22,294 nt of DNA, from positions 1 to 22,294 of the IMG/VR virus record IMGVR_UViG_3300007735_000486. The stretch is one strand, 5' to 3'. The translations under genes and the position numbers were made by a program. A model generated the notes under the pieces. It was not told the origin of the DNA and ran no database searches. It was given only the letters and a program-made list of their open reading frames with translations. Below, piece by piece: positions 5,805-22,294 of this stretch. Origin of the DNA: a virus. Numbering within the stretch: position 1 is the first letter of the stretch; each line of letters opens with the position of its first letter.

Positions 5805-6416
5805 ATGGAAAGCAAGGACGATAATCCGCCAGTGGCGGATAATTCTATTCCCGGTGGGAATGAATCCAACCAGCAGCCTGACATGCCCAAGAAAGATTCC
5901 GTAGCCTACGAAACGTACCAGAAGGTTCTGTCCGAAAAGAAAAAAGCGGCTGAAAGGCTTGCAGTTCTTGAGGCAGAGAAGTCTGAGCGCGAAAAGAAGG
6001 ACATGGAAGCTAAAGGGGAATATCAGAAGCTGATCGAGCTGGAAAAAAAGCGTGCCGACGAAGCGTTGGCCAAGGTTAGCGCGTTTGAAGAGCAGATGAC
6101 CCAGGGTAAGAAACTTCGTGCCCTGCTTAACGCTCTAGGTGGTCAGGTTGACGACAAGTTTTTAGGCTTTTTGCCAATCGACCAAATTGCTTTAGATCCA
6201 GAGACCAAGGACGTAAACCTAACATCGGTTGCTTCCGTGGCGGAACAGATCAAAAAGCAGTACCCGGAGTTCATTAAGAATCCAAATGCTCCCAGACTGC
6301 CGAACATGGCCCCGCAGGGTAACGAGGCAGGTAAGATCTCCGAGGCTGAGTGGAAGAAACTACCGGCTAAGGAAATGGCTAAATACAGCTCTAATCAAAT
6401 TATTTGGGGGAATTAA
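5805..6416 (+). CDS. Capsid scaffolding protein
   Basis: This 203-residue protein is acidic at its N-terminus, then highly charged and Lys/Glu-rich with a predicted long coiled coil from about residue 40 to 110, and ends in a basic Asn/Pro-rich tail. That profile, together with its place directly before the coat gene, fits a scaffold (GP20-like) that templates procapsid assembly and then leaves. The longest open frame would begin at GTG 5799, but those bases belong to the AGAGGTG ribosome site, so ATG 5805 is the better start. There is no sign of a protease domain. No sequence signature is unique to scaffolds, so the call is contextual. Confidence 0.8.
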   Translation: MESKDDNPPVADNSIPGGNESNQQPDMPKKDSVAYETYQKVLSEKKKAAERLAVLEAEKSEREKKDMEAKGEYQKLIELEKKRADEALAKVSAFEEQMTQGKKLRALLNALGGQVDDKFLGFLPIDQIALDPETKDVNLTSVASVAEQIKKQYPEFIKNPNAPRLPNMAPQGNEAGKISEAEWKKLPAKEMAKYSSNQIIWGN

Positions 6417-6419
6417 TCC

Positions 6420-7280
6420 ATGTCAGCAACGACTCTCGCAGAAGTATCAAATCAGATCCAAAAATACTGGTCGCCTCTCTTCACCAAGCAACTCCGGGAA
6501 TCCCTGTTGCTTGGCGGTTTGGTCGACAAGAAATATCAAGGCGCTATCGCTCGTGGCGGTGACACTGTTCGAGTGAGCCAAGTCAATGCTCCTGCTGGTC
6601 AGAACCTGACCGTCGGCACGGACGCAGATACATTCAACACTGAAGCTATCTCCACGTCCTATGTTGACATCAAGGCTGACAAGCGCGCGGTCGCTGCCTA
6701 CGAGTTCCAGGATCTCGTGGAGCTTCAGTCCCAGATCGACAACAACCCCGAAGTACGTGAATCCCTCATGTACGCGATGAACAAGCAAGTTAACGACTAC
6801 CTCTGGTCGCTCGTTTCTGCTTCGACATCTGCACCCGACCACAACATCAACGCTGTTTCTGACTTTAACAGCAGCCAGCTTTCCGCTTGCCGCGTGTTGG
6901 CAGCTCAAGCTAAATGGCGCCCTGAGCCAGGATGGTACGTCCTTGCAGACCCTCAGTATTACGGTGACCTGCTAAACAGCACCACCATCGTTAGCTCTGA
7001 CTTCTCTGCTGGCGATGCCCCTACTGTCGGCGGTATGATCGGCACCAAGCGCTTTGGCTTCAGCATCTTCGAAGATAACAGCCGTGCTGCTGACCATGCT
7101 CTCGTGTTCCACCCTGACTTTATGCACCTCGTTCAGCAGCAAGCTGTCCAGGTGAAGGTATCCGACATGCACGCCTTGGGCAAGTTCGGTTACAAGCTCT
7201 CGGTTGATATGGTCTACGGTGCTAAACTTGGGATCAACGGCTCTGTTAAGCACATCCAAGTTTACAACTCTGCTTGGTAG
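6420..7280 (+). CDS. Major capsid (coat) protein
   Basis: The 286-residue product builds the icosahedral shell. It starts ATTLAEVSNQIQKYWSP and continues with an arm, GDTVRVSQV, and an alpha/beta core with WYVLADPQYYGDLL and a C-terminal VDMVYGAKLGI, in line with HK97-fold coats of the family that is made without a cleaved N-terminal domain. At 286 residues it is near the small end for this fold. GGGGGA at 6406-6411 precedes ATG 6420. It lies right after the scaffold gene and its even, GC-ending codon use suggests high expression. The assignment is based on position, size and overall pattern. Confidence 0.85.
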   Translation: MSATTLAEVSNQIQKYWSPLFTKQLRESLLLGGLVDKKYQGAIARGGDTVRVSQVNAPAGQNLTVGTDADTFNTEAISTSYVDIKADKRAVAAYEFQDLVELQSQIDNNPEVRESLMYAMNKQVNDYLWSLVSASTSAPDHNINAVSDFNSSQLSACRVLAAQAKWRPEPGWYVLADPQYYGDLLNSTTIVSSDFSAGDAPTVGGMIGTKRFGFSIFEDNSRAADHALVFHPDFMHLVQQQAVQVKVSDMHALGKFGYKLSVDMVYGAKLGINGSVKHIQVYNSAW

Positions 7281-8373: not shown

Positions 8374-8582
8374 TGGCTACAATTGGCGCAACAAGCTCAT
8401 GCTCAACTGGCGGTGGAACAACCGTAAGCGATGAAGTCCCGCAATGTCTTGGAAAGTTGGTATTAGAGGCCGATTCAATCTTTAAAGCTTATCCGAATAC
8501 CACATGGAGGATTGTTAATAGTACAATCCCCTCACAAGAATTCAGGGTAAAAACTGGATCTCAAGTGGAGAATATATTGTGA
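8373..8582 (+). CDS. Small hypothetical protein ahead of the fibre genes
   Basis: A 69-residue protein with a Ser/Thr/Gly-rich N-terminus (SSCSTGGGTT) followed by a mixed region LGKLVLEADSIFKAYPNTTW. A strong GAGGAG site at 8359-8364 precedes its ATG by 8 bases, so it is likely a true gene. Its ATG overlaps the previous stop and its stop overlaps the next start by 4 bases, so it is translated as one unit with the fibre. No family was recognised; it may be a fibre-joining protein. Confidence 0.58.
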   Translation: MATIGATSSCSTGGGTTVSDEVPQCLGKLVLEADSIFKAYPNTTWRIVNSTIPSQEFRVKTGSQVENIL

Positions 8583-9466
8583 GTCAACAAAAGTTTGGTA
8601 TTGGCTCTGTTCCGGCAACCCCAGAATCTGGCTATGTGACTATCTATCCTAAGTCAGACAAACGCATGTATGGCAAGGATGCCAACGGTATTGAGTTTTC
8701 CCTTGGCGCAATCGCTAGTACAGATGCCCTGCCAGAAGGCGCCACCAACCTATACTTTACCGATGAACGTGCTCAAGACGCTGCTCTTAGTGTTTTGGCG
8801 GATAGCGCTGATATTGACTTTACTTATAACGATGCTGGTAACTCGGCATCTGCTGTTCTTACTACGTCAGGGGCATCGGCTGGGACGTACGGCTCGGCTA
8901 GTCAGACACCTGTAGTTACTGTGGATGCTAAAGGACGGGTTACTGGGATTTCTCAGACACCAACAGCCGCTCTAGCTAATACAGATGCCTTGCCAGAGGG
9001 GGCAAGCAATCTCTATTTCACGACTGAAAGGGCTCAGGATGCCGCTCTTGGTGTCCTCACAGATAGTGCCGATATTGATTTTACCTACAACGATGCCGGT
9101 AACTCAGCAACAGCAGTGCTTACCACATCAGGTACGGCAGGTACCTATGGATCAGCTAGTTCTGTGCCGGTGCTCACACAAGATTCCAAAGGTAGATTGA
9201 CGGGCGTCACTGATACACCGATAGCATTACTCGGCGCGGCAATCACAGCACTGACTGGACTCACTGAACAGTACGGCTTTGTGGAGGCTACGGATACGCT
9301 ATTGCAGGCCATCGCTAAACTCGGCTACAGTTCATGCTTACAGAAAAACACGATTAACACTAATGCTACGCTAGTAGACGGAGAGACCTGGATAAGGGCA
9401 GAAACTAGCATTACTGGTACATCGGAAATATTAGCTCTTGGTTCTTCAGAAGTTTTATTTATATAG
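8579..9466 (+). CDS. Fibre-like protein with two tandem repeats
   Basis: The 295-residue product has an N-terminal segment VPATPESGYVTIYPKSDKR (11-29), then two tandem repeats of 82-83 residues (48-130 and 135-216), each with ALPEGAxNLYFTxERAQDAAL, DSADIDFTYNDAGNSA and a TYGSASxxPV..KGRxTG end, and then a C-terminal segment. The NLYFTxERAxxA motif and the TYGSA..KGRxTG motif recur in tail-fibre and appendage shafts, where they usually form trimeric beta-structured rods. The start is GTG 8579, overlapping the previous stop (GTGA); GTGGAG at 8565-8570 gives a site 8 bases upstream. Its position in the head module, not after the tape measure, makes a head fibre or side appendage possible. Confidence 0.75.
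   Translation: MSQQKFGIGSVPATPESGYVTIYPKSDKRMYGKDANGIEFSLGAIASTDALPEGATNLYFTDERAQDAALSVLADSADIDFTYNDAGNSASAVLTTSGASAGTYGSASQTPVVTVDAKGRVTGISQTPTAALANTDALPEGASNLYFTTERAQDAALGVLTDSADIDFTYNDAGNSATAVLTTSGTAGTYGSASSVPVLTQDSKGRLTGVTDTPIALLGAAITALTGLTEQYGFVEATDTLLQAIAKLGYSSCLQKNTINTNATLVDGETWIRAETSITGTSEILALGSSEVLFI
8720..8968 (+). repeat. Fibre repeat unit 1
   Basis: Encodes residues 48-130 of the fibre-like protein. Its protein is about four fifths identical by eye to unit 2, while many codons differ at the third position, so the duplication is old and held at the protein level. Confidence 0.85.
8981..9226 (+). repeat. Fibre repeat unit 2
   Basis: Encodes residues 135-216 of the same protein. 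Compared with unit 1 it lacks one residue near GTAGTYG and has several changes in the C-terminal third (VPVLTQDSKGRLTG). A four-residue linker separates the units. Confidence 0.85.
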
Positions 9467-9475
9467 AGGTAAATA

Positions 9476-10603
9476 ATGGCAAAGGTAACCTTAGAAAATC
9501 AATCGGCGGCGTCAGTTCCAACGCCAGCGAGCGGGCGCACTACGGTATTCGTTGACAGTGCGGATAAACATTTCAAAATTAAAGACGATACCGGTGCCGT
9601 TACTGATACTTCTGTACCAGGTTCAGCAATAACAAGCTTGACTGGTGACGTAACAGCAACTGGGCCTGGGGCAGCTGCTGCAACCGTAACAAATGCCTCC
9701 GTTATCGCTAAAGTTTTGACGGGGTATTCTGCGTCATCAGGAACCTTGTCATCATCTGACAGTATCCTGACCGCATTCAATAAACTCGGAGCTAGGTTAG
9801 ATTGCGGGTGGTTTGGCACCGGGAACGACGGGACAGCCACAATCTCTGTCGATACTACCCTGATTAGGGATATGTATTACAGCTCCCTTCAAATCAATAC
9901 CGGCGCTACCCTGTTCACTGCTGGGTACAGGGTACATGTTCTTGGCGATTTCACTATTCAATCTGGGGCCTTTGTTGATCGTAGCGGGAACAACGCAACG
10001 TTATCATTAGCTGGTGCAGGTCAGACGGCCGGTACAATTGGTGCCGGGTCAGCTGGAGGTGTCGGTGGTGGGGTTGGAGCTGGTACAGCAGGTAGCGGCC
10101 AAACGACTTGCGTTGGAGGCGCCGGAGGTGCTGGAGGTGCTGGAGCTTTTGCCGGTGGTGCCGGTGGGGCAGCAACTGTCCCAGTCGCAACTGTTGGCGG
10201 GGTTGATGCTCTTTACGCAGTTCGGCAAGCTACCGTAGCAAGAGACATAACCAACGTTGTGATGACTCCAGGTTGTGGTGGAGGTGGCGGTGGCGGATCT
10301 GGCGCCGCTTCTTCTGGCGGTGGTGGCGGTGGTGGGGCTGGAATAATTGTAATCATGGCCCGCAACCTGACCGGTAGCGGAACAATTAGAGCTATCGGCG
10401 GAAGCGGTGGTAATGCCAACATTGCGACAGGCGGCGGTGGTGGAGGAGGCGGCGGGGGAACTATCGTTCTCGTAACTGAGAATGATACGACAACCACATC
10501 TCTTACTGTTAGTGTCACTGGCGGATCTGGCGGGGCGGGAAACACCACCGGTTTAGCGGGCGCAACTGGCGCCAACGGTCGTATCTATAGAGTGAGGACA
10601 TAA
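9476..10603 (+). CDS. Glycine-rich adhesin-like fibre protein
   Basis: The 375-residue product opens with a possible anchor segment similar to that of the previous fibre (SVPTPASGRTTVFVDSADK, 13-31), then LTGDVTATGPGAAAATV, a fibre-type motif, and a mid-region with a beta pattern around 110-175. From about residue 180 it is Gly/Ala-rich, and at 268-274, 281-287 and 319-328 it has pure Gly runs alternating with strands such as AGIIVIMARNLTGSGTIRAI and TIVLVTEN. This alternation is reminiscent of polyglycine type II adhesins, for example phage S16 gp38, which bind host surface molecules; exact fold and receptor are unknown. AGAGG at 9465-9469 lies 6 bases before the ATG. Low-complexity Gly codons explain the G-rich DNA here. 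Confidence 0.72.
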   Translation: MAKVTLENQSAASVPTPASGRTTVFVDSADKHFKIKDDTGAVTDTSVPGSAITSLTGDVTATGPGAAAATVTNASVIAKVLTGYSASSGTLSSSDSILTAFNKLGARLDCGWFGTGNDGTATISVDTTLIRDMYYSSLQINTGATLFTAGYRVHVLGDFTIQSGAFVDRSGNNATLSLAGAGQTAGTIGAGSAGGVGGGVGAGTAGSGQTTCVGGAGGAGGAGAFAGGAGGAATVPVATVGGVDALYAVRQATVARDITNVVMTPGCGGGGGGGSGAASSGGGGGGGAGIIVIMARNLTGSGTIRAIGGSGGNANIATGGGGGGGGGGTIVLVTENDTTTTSLTVSVTGGSGGAGNTTGLAGATGANGRIYRVRT

Positions 10604-10605
10604 CT

Positions 10606-11100
10606 ATGGCTAAGTTTCTAGTAGTTGATTCAGAAAATCATGAGCCTTATGCTCTATATGAAGCAGACTCCCAGAGGCCAGATGATTTTTTGGTAGAAGG
10701 CAAAAGCTTTATTCATTGCATTGTTACGACTGGTGCCAACCCAAGCTACTGCAATATTGTAAATGATGCAGGTATCTGGAAGGCCACTCCTAAAATAGAT
10801 GTGAATTTTGTAAAAGGCGAGTTGATGAAACGCATTGATTTCGCAATCGGTTTGATTGCGGAATTCTCTGCTGAAAACCAGCTTCTTGGGATCACAGCAG
10901 AGCAAACCACCGCGGTATTCGGAGCTATGTCTGGCATCATTCTTGCCATGCAGGTTGGCGCACTCGAGACGGCTATCGCTATGCTTAAAGCTCTGCCAGA
11001 CGAAGTAATGGATGGGGTTATCTTTTCAAAGGCTAGGCTTCTTGTTTACGTTAACAAGTGCGAAAACTTTATGGGTGTTCCTTTAAGCGGGGCCTGGTAA
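10606..11100 (+). CDS. Hypothetical protein, possible fibre-associated factor
   Basis: A 164-residue protein with a strand-rich N-terminal half (FLVVDSENHEPYALYEAD) and a helical C-terminal half (KRIDFAIGLIAEFSAENQL, EQTTAVFGAMSGIILAM, ALETAIAMLKALPDEVM). GAGGA at 10594-10598 lies 7 bases before ATG 10606, so it is expressed. It directly follows the Gly-rich fibre gene, the usual place for a fibre assembly chaperone, and its split layout fits that loosely, but I see no diagnostic motif. Its codon use is clearly more AT-rich than that of the flanking structural genes, a hint of separate origin. Its stop overlaps the start of the next gene by one base (TAATG). Confidence 0.55.
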   Translation: MAKFLVVDSENHEPYALYEADSQRPDDFLVEGKSFIHCIVTTGANPSYCNIVNDAGIWKATPKIDVNFVKGELMKRIDFAIGLIAEFSAENQLLGITAEQTTAVFGAMSGIILAMQVGALETAIAMLKALPDEVMDGVIFSKARLLVYVNKCENFMGVPLSGAW

Positions 11101-20893: not shown

Positions 20894-22294
20894 ATGGCAG
20901 GAACAGTTAAGAAGCTTCAGTTTTCGGAAGGCACAGACGTAGGCGCACCTACAGACCTGAGCCTTGCTACCAGTACCACCACTATCAGCTCTTATGTGGA
21001 TGACGCAGCATTTGTAACCGCAAACGGTACAGCTTCCGAAGGTGACGTATATCTAAACAGCACAACTAACAAGTTTAGGTATTACGTCGGAGGGTCATGG
21101 CGTAACGGTGCTCCTGAAGTTTCACCTACACTCACAACGCCGCTTGTAACCGCTGGTGGATCTATTGATGTTACAGGAGCAGGTTCATTCTCATTAGCGG
21201 CCAGCATGGGAGCTAACAACCTGACCCTTGGGGGAGCTTCATCTACGGTTGTAGTTCCTGGAAACATGACTGTGTCTGGGGTAACAACAACGATTAATAG
21301 CACCACGGTTGATGTTGCTGATAAAAACATCACGATTTCTAAGGGCGGTAACGATGCAGCTTCTGAGGGATCTGGAATCACGGTTGACAGAACTAGCACT
21401 AAGGGCAGCATCATCTACAAGGCTGCAAGTGCCTCTAGGTTTGCAATTGGAGACTTGGCTTCAGAAGTTGACGTAGTTGCAACATCCGCTACTCAACAAT
21501 TGACCAACAAGGATTTTGATGGCGGTACAGCGAGTAATGCGAACCGCTTTACCGTTCCTAAAAACACAAAATCCAACCTTGATGCACTGACGCGCAAGGA
21601 AGGTACGCTAGTATTTGCGACTGATACACAGTCAGCATACCTAGATTACAACTCCACACTTAACCCTCTCGGAGGTGCTGGAGTGACTTTGACGGTCACT
21701 CAGGCATCGCACGGGTTTACCTCGTCAAACTACGGGGCACCGCTTTACCTTAACGCTGGAGTTTACACGCTGGCGAAAGCAGATGCAGCGAGCACGGCTG
21801 AAGTGATTGGTGTGATCGACACAGTGATTGACGCCAATACGTTCTCGCTGAAAGAAGCGGGTTCAGTAGCTGTCAACACGGCCGTCAGCGGAGGAGCTTT
21901 GACGGCAGGTACGGTGTATTTCCTTAGTGCCTCGACAGCAGGTCAGATCACTGCTACTGAGCCAACGACGGTAGGGTATGTCTCCAAGCCTATCGGTGTG
22001 GCAAATAGCACCACGACATTGATTCTTACACAGTCTCGCGGTGTGGTTATCGGCGGCGCAAACGCTCGCACTACGATCTCACTCGCGAACAATGCGACCA
22101 CGACTGTTCAGAACGTATCGGCTTACTCGGCTGGCGAGCTGTCTGGTTGGATCACGATTGCAGCGACAACTCCCTTGCAGTTTTACGTTCAGGCGCAATT
22201 CGCCAAGAACGGCGCGGCGAGTGACTACAACATTGCTTACCAGACAACTGGAGACACACCACCGAGCGGGTTTAGCCTAACCGTGACGAGCGGG
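20894..22294 (+). CDS. Tail fibre protein, 3' end cut by window edge
   Basis: An open frame starts at ATG 20894 (AAAAGGA at 20879-20885, spacing 8) and has no stop through the right edge: 467 codons so far. The first 70 residues include an anchor-like segment ending in GDVYLNSTTNKFRYYVGGSW. Then TTTINSTTVDVADKNITIS, followed by EGSGITVDRT, is a motif known from phage fibre and other appendage proteins, and SQATQQLTNKDF-like text (near 203-210) occurs in fibre shafts. The segment from about 264 (GVTLTVTQASHGFTSS, with AEVIGVIDTVIDANTF and GTVYFLSAS) is another recurrent fibre domain. The receptor-binding tip is probably beyond the window. Its place after the hub is the standard tail-fibre locus. 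Confidence 0.8.
   Translation, partial: MAGTVKKLQFSEGTDVGAPTDLSLATSTTTISSYVDDAAFVTANGTASEGDVYLNSTTNKFRYYVGGSWRNGAPEVSPTLTTPLVTAGGSIDVTGAGSFSLAASMGANNLTLGGASSTVVVPGNMTVSGVTTTINSTTVDVADKNITISKGGNDAASEGSGITVDRTSTKGSIIYKAASASRFAIGDLASEVDVVATSATQQLTNKDFDGGTASNANRFTVPKNTKSNLDALTRKEGTLVFATDTQSAYLDYNSTLNPLGGAGVTLTVTQASHGFTSSNYGAPLYLNAGVYTLAKADAASTAEVIGVIDTVIDANTFSLKEAGSVAVNTAVSGGALTAGTVYFLSASTAGQITATEPTTVGYVSKPIGVANSTTTLILTQSRGVVIGGANARTTISLANNATTTVQNVSAYSAGELSGWITIAATTPLQFYVQAQFAKNGAASDYNIAYQTTGDTPPSGFSLTVTSG

Follow-up and report, generated by a model that had tools for sequence, protein, structure and literature searches.

The Gly-rich protein encoded at positions 9476-10603 of the viral DNA analysed here (termed P0001) is probably a virion fibre-tip adhesin that combines a beta-helix with a glycine lattice like that of phage gp38, and for this protein we infer polyglycine-II (PGII) geometry, host binding, an oligomeric state and a place in the virion. 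The DNA, hereafter the window, is the whole of an IMG/VR virus record (22,294 bases) and, as open frames are cut at both of its ends, represents a fragment. PHROG matches (ParB-like/methyltransferase, terminase small and large subunits, major head protein, minor tail protein and tape measure) reveal a siphophage-like gene set around the Gly-rich gene, which sits between head-side genes and the genes preceding the tape measure. A single frame immediately 5' of the terminase genes (538-1728) holds both ParB-like and DNA methyltransferase regions. A long frame after the tape measure (20894-22294), fibre-like by eye, is cut by the record end, which leaves distal tail genes out of view; in another contig (L153), one protein resembles its product (48%). 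A tRNA scan of the window found none, and neither megablast of the window nor tblastn of its major head protein in named phages returned anything useful.

Glycine blocks and predicted fold of P0001

The P0001 translation contains three pure-Gly blocks of 7, 7 and 10 residues, at residues 268-274, 281-287 and 319-328 (nucleotides 10277-10297, 10316-10336 and 10430-10459, in mixed Gly codons). This confirms a sequence-only reading that had described such blocks, alternating with hydrophobic strands, across 10139-10470 (residues 222-332); the strands it quoted are residues 288-307 and 329-336. A further, longer Gly-rich arm at residues 171-232 was absent from its list. The same reading had argued from the regular spacing of the blocks that they are not random low complexity. 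Three Gly runs of at least seven residues were found in 0 of 100,000 composition-preserving shuffles of the whole protein, in 2 of 100,000 of residues 181-375 and in 0 of 100,000 of residues 222-332, and the spacing is kept in relatives, which bears the argument out; on the basis of the shuffles, conserved Gly columns and predicted order, random low complexity was rejected. Also rejected, as a gene, was a Pro-rich 120-aa frame on the minus strand (10213-10575), which is merely the complement of the Gly codons. The parts of P0001 and its two neighbours are as follows.

8579..9466, plus strand: upstream fibre-like protein, 295 aa, likely tip partner (a relative immediately precedes the Gly-rich gene in 10 of 10 other contigs in view)
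9476..10603, plus strand: P0001, putative Gly-rich fibre-tip protein, 375 aa (open reading frame; full-length relatives in other contigs have 368-378 aa)
9476..9625, plus strand: putative N-terminal anchor, residues 1-50 (0.55 pairwise identity in the subfamily)
9626..9811, plus strand: linker and short helices, residues 51-112 (pLDDT 40-57 for 51-110; helices 73-80 and 97-105)
9812..9985, plus strand: 'DMYY' beta-helix scaffold, residues 113-170 (invariant motif; pLDDT block means 96-98 for 121-170)
9986..10171, plus strand: Gly arm 1, residues 171-232 (pLDDT block means 89-97 for 171-230)
10172..10267, plus strand: Gly-poor segment, candidate contact surface, residues 233-264 (pLDDT 68, 47 and 45 for 231-260)
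10268..10339, plus strand: Gly arm 2 with both blocks of 7, residues 265-288 (Gly runs, model and conservation)
10340..10396, plus strand: beta-helix strands, residues 289-307 (model strands 290-300 and 303-305)
10430..10459, plus strand: Gly block 3, residues 319-328 (0.89 pairwise identity in 12 sequences; pLDDT 94 and 97 for 311-330)
10460..10600, plus strand: last strands and C-terminal Gly turn, residues 329-375 (strands 329-334, 344-346 and 369-374)
10606..11100, plus strand: small protein of 164 aa encoded downstream, candidate chaperone (a relative follows immediately in 5 of 11 contigs in view)

P0001 was modelled with AlphaFold2 as a single chain from 43 aligned sequences (model 1; mean pLDDT 79.3, pTM 0.69). 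Ten-residue pLDDT means were 88-98 for residues 111-230, 83-98 for 271-375 and 40-79 for 1-110, with block means of 68, 47, 45 and 82 over 231-270; over the Gly blocks they reached 93-98, including 94 and 97 at the 10-Gly block. Residues 111-375, modelled confidently except at about 231-260, form in this model a short beta-helix with Gly-rich turns. The outcome that the sequence-only reading had named as fatal to its proposal, disorder with no conserved Gly spacing, is thus the opposite of what was found, as the Gly blocks are predicted to be ordered and their spacing is conserved. A second model was made for a distant member from a Myxococcales MAG (L139), a 262-aa protein that is almost the module only (model 2; mean pLDDT 87.5, pTM 0.85); it shows a similar strand order and, at the corresponding place, a low segment with a helix.

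Foldseek comparison of model 1 with the PDB gave no match at E<=0.001. In the VIA realignment, which covered the 69 best chains for model 1 (68 aligned) and 19 chains for model 2, the top match to model 1 was the PP01 gp38 domain (Z 5.2, 122 residues aligned, 4.0 A), level with an ice-binding beta-helix (Z 5.1) and not far above pectate lyases (Z 4.7). Autotransporter and tapirin beta-helices led the model 2 list (Z 7.4 to 6.0), in which PP01 gp38 (Z 5.8, 125 aligned), the Bxb1 tail tip chain 9d93_Qa (Z 5.6, 117 aligned, 32% identity) and S16 gp38 (Z 5.3, 117 aligned) appeared with other beta-helices interspersed among them; a dynein-dynactin chain listed above gp38 was discounted (rmsd 12.1 A). 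S16 gp38 and Bxb1 were absent from the model 1 list and the Pam3 entry 7YFW from both lists, and such absences are uninformative. Every Z-score was below 8, and plain beta-helices without Gly bundles tied with or exceeded gp38. PGII/PPII bundles are described for PP01 gp38, S16 gp38 and the Bxb1 tail tip in the excerpted texts of PMC12892980, PMC6851490 and PMC13243192, and the authors of the LSH1 study met the same problem of beta-helices swamping a structural search, according to extracts of their paper (PMC13243795). The occurrence of all three PGII/PPII phage tips among 19 chains supports the analogy at the level of predicted models, while the Z values are no proof of it.

No phage tip was retrieved by PDB profile searches with alignments A2 and A5, whose matches included Obg-type GTPases, merozoite surface antigens and engineered linkers; the Gly-rich module references numbered 40, with L067 and L125 excluded from alignment A2. 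Obg proteins carry Gly-rich left-handed helices, and the Obg match was therefore read as convergence.

Conservation and spread of the DMYY family

Pfam, PHROG and PDB sequence searches with P0001 gave no useful match, tblastn in named phages gave nothing with P0001, with a 72-aa piece or with two other family members (L094 and L028), and an exact-pattern search of viral contigs with P0001 likewise gave nothing; a search with alignment A1 was swamped by Gly patterns and yielded 4 loci. Relatives were instead gathered with a degenerate DNA pattern for D-G-x3-I-x3-T-x3-[R/S]-D-M-Y-Y, corresponding to P0001 residues 118-135, which was found in at least 119 stretches of viral contigs, with 124 motif-bearing open frames among the stretches listed. 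BLAST of P0001 against the motif frames listed matched L063 at 61% over 374 aa and L108, which is cut off, at 61%, along with many weaker ones. When the N-terminal 112 residues of P0001 were used as the query, 64 loci were found; among the 18 inspected, 10 carried the Gly-rich module, one (L156) stops just after the motif and 7 share N-terminal stretches only. Several loci represent the same gene twice (L108/L147, L063/L152, L076/L155, L030/L148 and L073/L074/L156) and were counted once in the cassette and conservation counts.

Among the 43 sequences, all of which except P0001 were gathered via the DMYY motif or via its close relatives, the invariant residues of the scaffold are D118, G119, I123, T127, D132-Y135 and L138. 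The Gly blocks and their spacing recur in the seven sequences compared (one of them cut off inside block 3) and in the 12 aligned, with a single block Gly replaced in some relatives by Ala, Ser, Arg or Lys, and frame length is nearly constant within the window's subfamily. Across residues 171-375 of the 12 distinct aligned sequences, 39 of 70 Gly positions are invariant vs 3 of 135 other residues, and 49 of the 76 invariant columns overall are Gly, counting columns with at least 11 letters. Pairwise identity within the module is 0.82-0.92 in Gly columns vs 0.30-0.49 in non-Gly columns (0.82 vs 0.44 in Gly arm 1). This contrast indicates that the glycine lattice is strongly constrained, while the residues borne on it are freer. 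The non-Gly residues of the module are just moderately more variable than the N-terminus, where non-Gly columns of residues 1-170 have a pairwise identity of 0.50-0.53. Hypervariable loops between conserved Gly blocks, which the sequence-only reading had proposed as a sign of receptor binding, were not seen in close pairs at the depth sampled: three such pairs (97%, 83% and 78% identical over the module), none including P0001, differ at scattered sites and not in a few loops.

In 33 of the 39 poly-Gly members, the longest Gly-poor stretch of the protein falls within the module. This stretch is mildly enriched in bulky hydrophobics (0.35 vs 0.27 of non-Gly residues; 34 of 39 members show the difference), an enrichment that choosing the longest Gly-poor stretch may itself favour. 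Membrane insertion of residues 233-264 was considered and not adopted, as the enrichment is small and open to this selection effect.

Not all DMYY proteins carry poly-Gly. By our own simple composition cut-offs, the 87 non-redundant, complete members, of which 5 come from genome contigs, comprise 38 poly-Gly, 17 Tyr-rich, 17 His-rich, 13 short and 2 other proteins; open frames cut at the 3' end were excluded from these counts and from those of Gly-poor stretches. Inserts rich in Tyr/Asn/Ser, or His-rich inserts of the H-x-H type, replace poly-Gly in L010, L062, L115, L037, L021, L035, L040 and others, and a second, short scaffold gene adjoins the insert-variant gene in L010, L021, L035, L040, L048, L088 and L126, two of these short copies being cut by the locus end.

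In the genome collection, the DMYY pattern was found in 9 stretches, 6 of them on contigs titled as Patescibacteria groups, assignments that rest on MAGs and are open to binning errors. Four Patescibacteria-titled contigs (L133, L134, L136 and L140) show phage tail operons by eye, with tape-measure matches in L133 and L136 and an amidase match in L136. Gly-rich DMYY proteins in such operons are a possible marker for Patescibacteria phages. Over the module, a frame from viral contigs (L071) shares 78% identity with L140. In a contig whose title names Woesebacteria, a Gly-rich DMYY frame (L138:5215-6828) opens only when TGA is read as a residue. Its 32 in-frame TGA codons (5872-6825) face Gly at 86 of 156 aligned places in six members, above the Gly share elsewhere in this comparison (0.26-0.34), so that, judging from these alignments, TGA most likely means glycine there (table 25); this would suit a phage of Gracilibacteria-like hosts, not of the titled Woesebacteria. 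A Bacteroidetes MAG protein (L137:2495-4288, minus strand) has a signal-peptide-like start by eye together with a DMYY Gly-rich module, suggesting that the module may also occur on cell surfaces.

A fold search of BFVD (E<=0.001) gave 10 matches for model 1 and 12 for model 2. Both models match three giant-virus proteins with E of 2.3e-19 to 8.6e-13, identities of 24-36% and rmsd values of 2.9 to 19.1 A, namely two 'collagen-like' proteins of Orpheovirus and one of Pandoravirus dulcis named 'collagen triple helix'. Both also match uncultured Caudovirales proteins and, less strongly, Bathycoccus and Ostreococcus virus proteins; gp38-type BFVD entries were not significant (E 0.36 and worse). Based on these predicted structures, we tentatively suggest that the beta-helix and glycine lattice could be one homologous adhesion unit shared by tailed phages of ordinary bacteria and of Patescibacteria (one with TGA as glycine) and by giant viruses of amoebae and algae, whose 'collagen-like' proteins would then be misnamed, and that the unit might serve as a chassis exchanging poly-Gly, Tyr/Asn-rich and His-rich fingers.

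Genomic context and rival readings

The Gly-rich gene and the upstream fibre-like gene form a cassette found on at least three backbones. A relative of the 8579-9466 product is encoded directly upstream in all 10 of the other subfamily contigs with this gene in view (including L063, L083 and L073), with similarity that in some contigs covers one protein end only. The window's copy matches structural, minor tail and unknown PHROG families, while the L063 copy matches tail fibre PHROGs, and residues 1-50 of P0001 are similar to the start of the upstream protein encoded in L076 and L083. Downstream, a relative of the 10606-11100 product, which has no Pfam match, follows directly in five of the 11 contigs in view (L147, L150, L151, L154 and L063) and not in L149, L153, L155, L083, L030 and L074. 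In L063, L076, L083, L108, L073, L074 and L030, the other window-like genes at E<=1e-3 were terminase and ParB/methyltransferase only. A second comparison, which included L149 and L155, displays the best match of each frame and may hide weaker ones. Relatives of the window's major head protein were found in 8 contigs, 6 of which hold the whole interval up to the relative of the 11100-11915 gene; a DMYY frame is present in none of the 8. The cassette is thus accessory and passes from one phage to another, as a fibre would be expected to do. Across all Gly-rich members, the comparison used 82 of the 91 upstream neighbour proteins and 55 of the 67 downstream ones (sets A3 and A4); the upstream set includes matches to tape-measure families (up to 10 of 82 proteins for any one PHROG), and the downstream set includes matches to endolysin and amidase families (at most 5 of 55 for any one PHROG).

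In the arrangement that we favour, the N-terminus (residues 1-112) would join the tip to the virion or to the upstream fibre-like protein (8579-9466), and residues 113-375 would form a short beta-helix with several turns drawn out as Gly-rich arms. Main-chain hydrogen bonds would hold these arms together in a gp38-like array of adjacent polyglycine-II-like helices. Contact with the host surface would fall to segment 233-264, poor in Gly and mildly hydrophobic, and to further non-Gly turns, all presented by the rigid lattice. The small 10606-11100 protein may assist folding of the tip.

The position of the gene counts against a tip: in the window it comes after the major head gene and the small head-side genes and ahead of the connector genes, not at the tail tip. 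The same glycine lattice might instead belong to a fibre of the capsid or neck, with a role in attaching the particle to surfaces or in shielding it, a placement that we consider unlikely but give some weight. Such a fibre would fit the cassettes of L063 and L149, which follow TerL-portal-protease-major head genes, the accessory nature of the gene, as shown by the head-protein-related contigs, and the presence in the window of the other long fibre-like frame after the tape measure. However, the cassette of L083 and of L076/L155 precedes a gene matching PHROG 1128 (a family with an uninformative name) and terminase genes, other Gly-rich members lie in tail operons, the L063 upstream partner resembles tail fibres, and tail fibre genes can in general sit away from the tail-tip block.

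Two further readings dispense with the lattice. Glycine makes up 36% of residues 222-332 and BLAST-type searches of named phages with P0001 were empty, as might be expected of a flexible, disordered glycine linker or low-complexity region without a specific fold, but the pLDDT over the Gly blocks, the conserved Gly columns and spacing and the nearly constant frame lengths of the subfamily make this improbable. A collagen-like triple helix would follow from the names of the giant-virus structural matches, since the best-named BFVD entries are called 'collagen-like' or 'collagen triple helix'; it has very little to recommend it given that the longest G-X-Y register run is 4 units, with no long repeat, and that the confident model is a single-chain beta-helix with turns.

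Glycine-lattice phage tips are known from few solved examples and were reportedly called rare in the title of the 2018 S16 gp38 paper. In 2019 they were called hard to predict in excerpts of PMC6851490. The DMYY family is common in environmental phage contigs and makes up a large viral family without an assigned function; it was not named in the titles and abstracts searched, and none of the papers listed as containing the letters DMYY concerns this protein, which is not proof that it is unpublished. If the fibre-tip reading is right, glycine-lattice adhesins missed by tblastn in this analysis could be traced through the DMYY motif, the fibre cassette could be recognized in uncultured phages, and phage tips could be connected in a testable way with the 'collagen-like' proteins of giant viruses.

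Comparison with known glycine-rich phage proteins

By sequence, membership of the gp38 family was rejected. None of the 43 DMYY family members scanned matches PF05268 at E<=0.01, and P0001 has no GP38 match at E<=1, whereas S16 gp38 used as a control scored 246 bits; hhalign with five aligned gp38 sequences yielded E 0.43 and 0.32, compared with 1.4e-36 for a held-out DMYY member. No Pfam family covers the 43 members. PHROG 13336, with no function assigned, is matched by 23 of them at E<=0.001 and by P0001 at E 0.037. The Gly-rich phage domain Gly_rich_2 (PF21722) matched neither P0001 nor the 43 members scanned, and hhalign gave none; it is present in L009, a backbone relative of the window, in a different Gly-rich protein (L009:12735-13433) encoded two genes ahead of the tape measure.

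In its predicted structure, P0001 modestly resembles gp38 of S16 and PP01 (PF05268), which likewise is a beta-helix with extended Gly-rich turns and long pure-Gly motifs (architecture as given in excerpts of PMC6851490 and PMC12892980). In T2-type phages gp38 is a separate fibre-tip gene, as P0001 is read to be, and its monomer is joined by an N-terminal helical domain to the end of a trimeric fibre. Unlike gp38, P0001 has its own N-terminal region, which does not match the Gp38_N attachment domain (PF21721), and hypervariable distal loops between Gly motifs were not seen in its subfamily. The gp38-like scaffold put forward in the sequence-only reading is partly supported: predicted order, conserved spacing and the presence of gp38 among the matches of both models speak for it, while the missing sequence relation, the modest Z-scores and the unrelated beta-helices that score equally or higher speak against it.

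Other phage tips show designs that may be comparable. The Bxb1 tail tip brush domains (gp33 and gp29; PDB 9D93) place a Gly-rich PPII bundle on a phage tail protein, although the match to 9d93_Qa is confined to residues 83-255 of model 2 and PDB sequence searches gave no match. The Pam3 fibre gp24, compared by text only, ends in a Gly-rich lattice and has a chaperone, gp25, but its lattice sits on a TNF-like domain and not on a beta-helix (excerpts of PMC9608196). The LSH1 hub brush domains, compared by description, share a beta-helix with Gly-rich fingers and hydrophobic patches, and differ in that the brush belongs to the tail hub protein (extracts of PMC13243795). Set beside these systems, P0001 may work like gp38 without belonging to the gp38 family.
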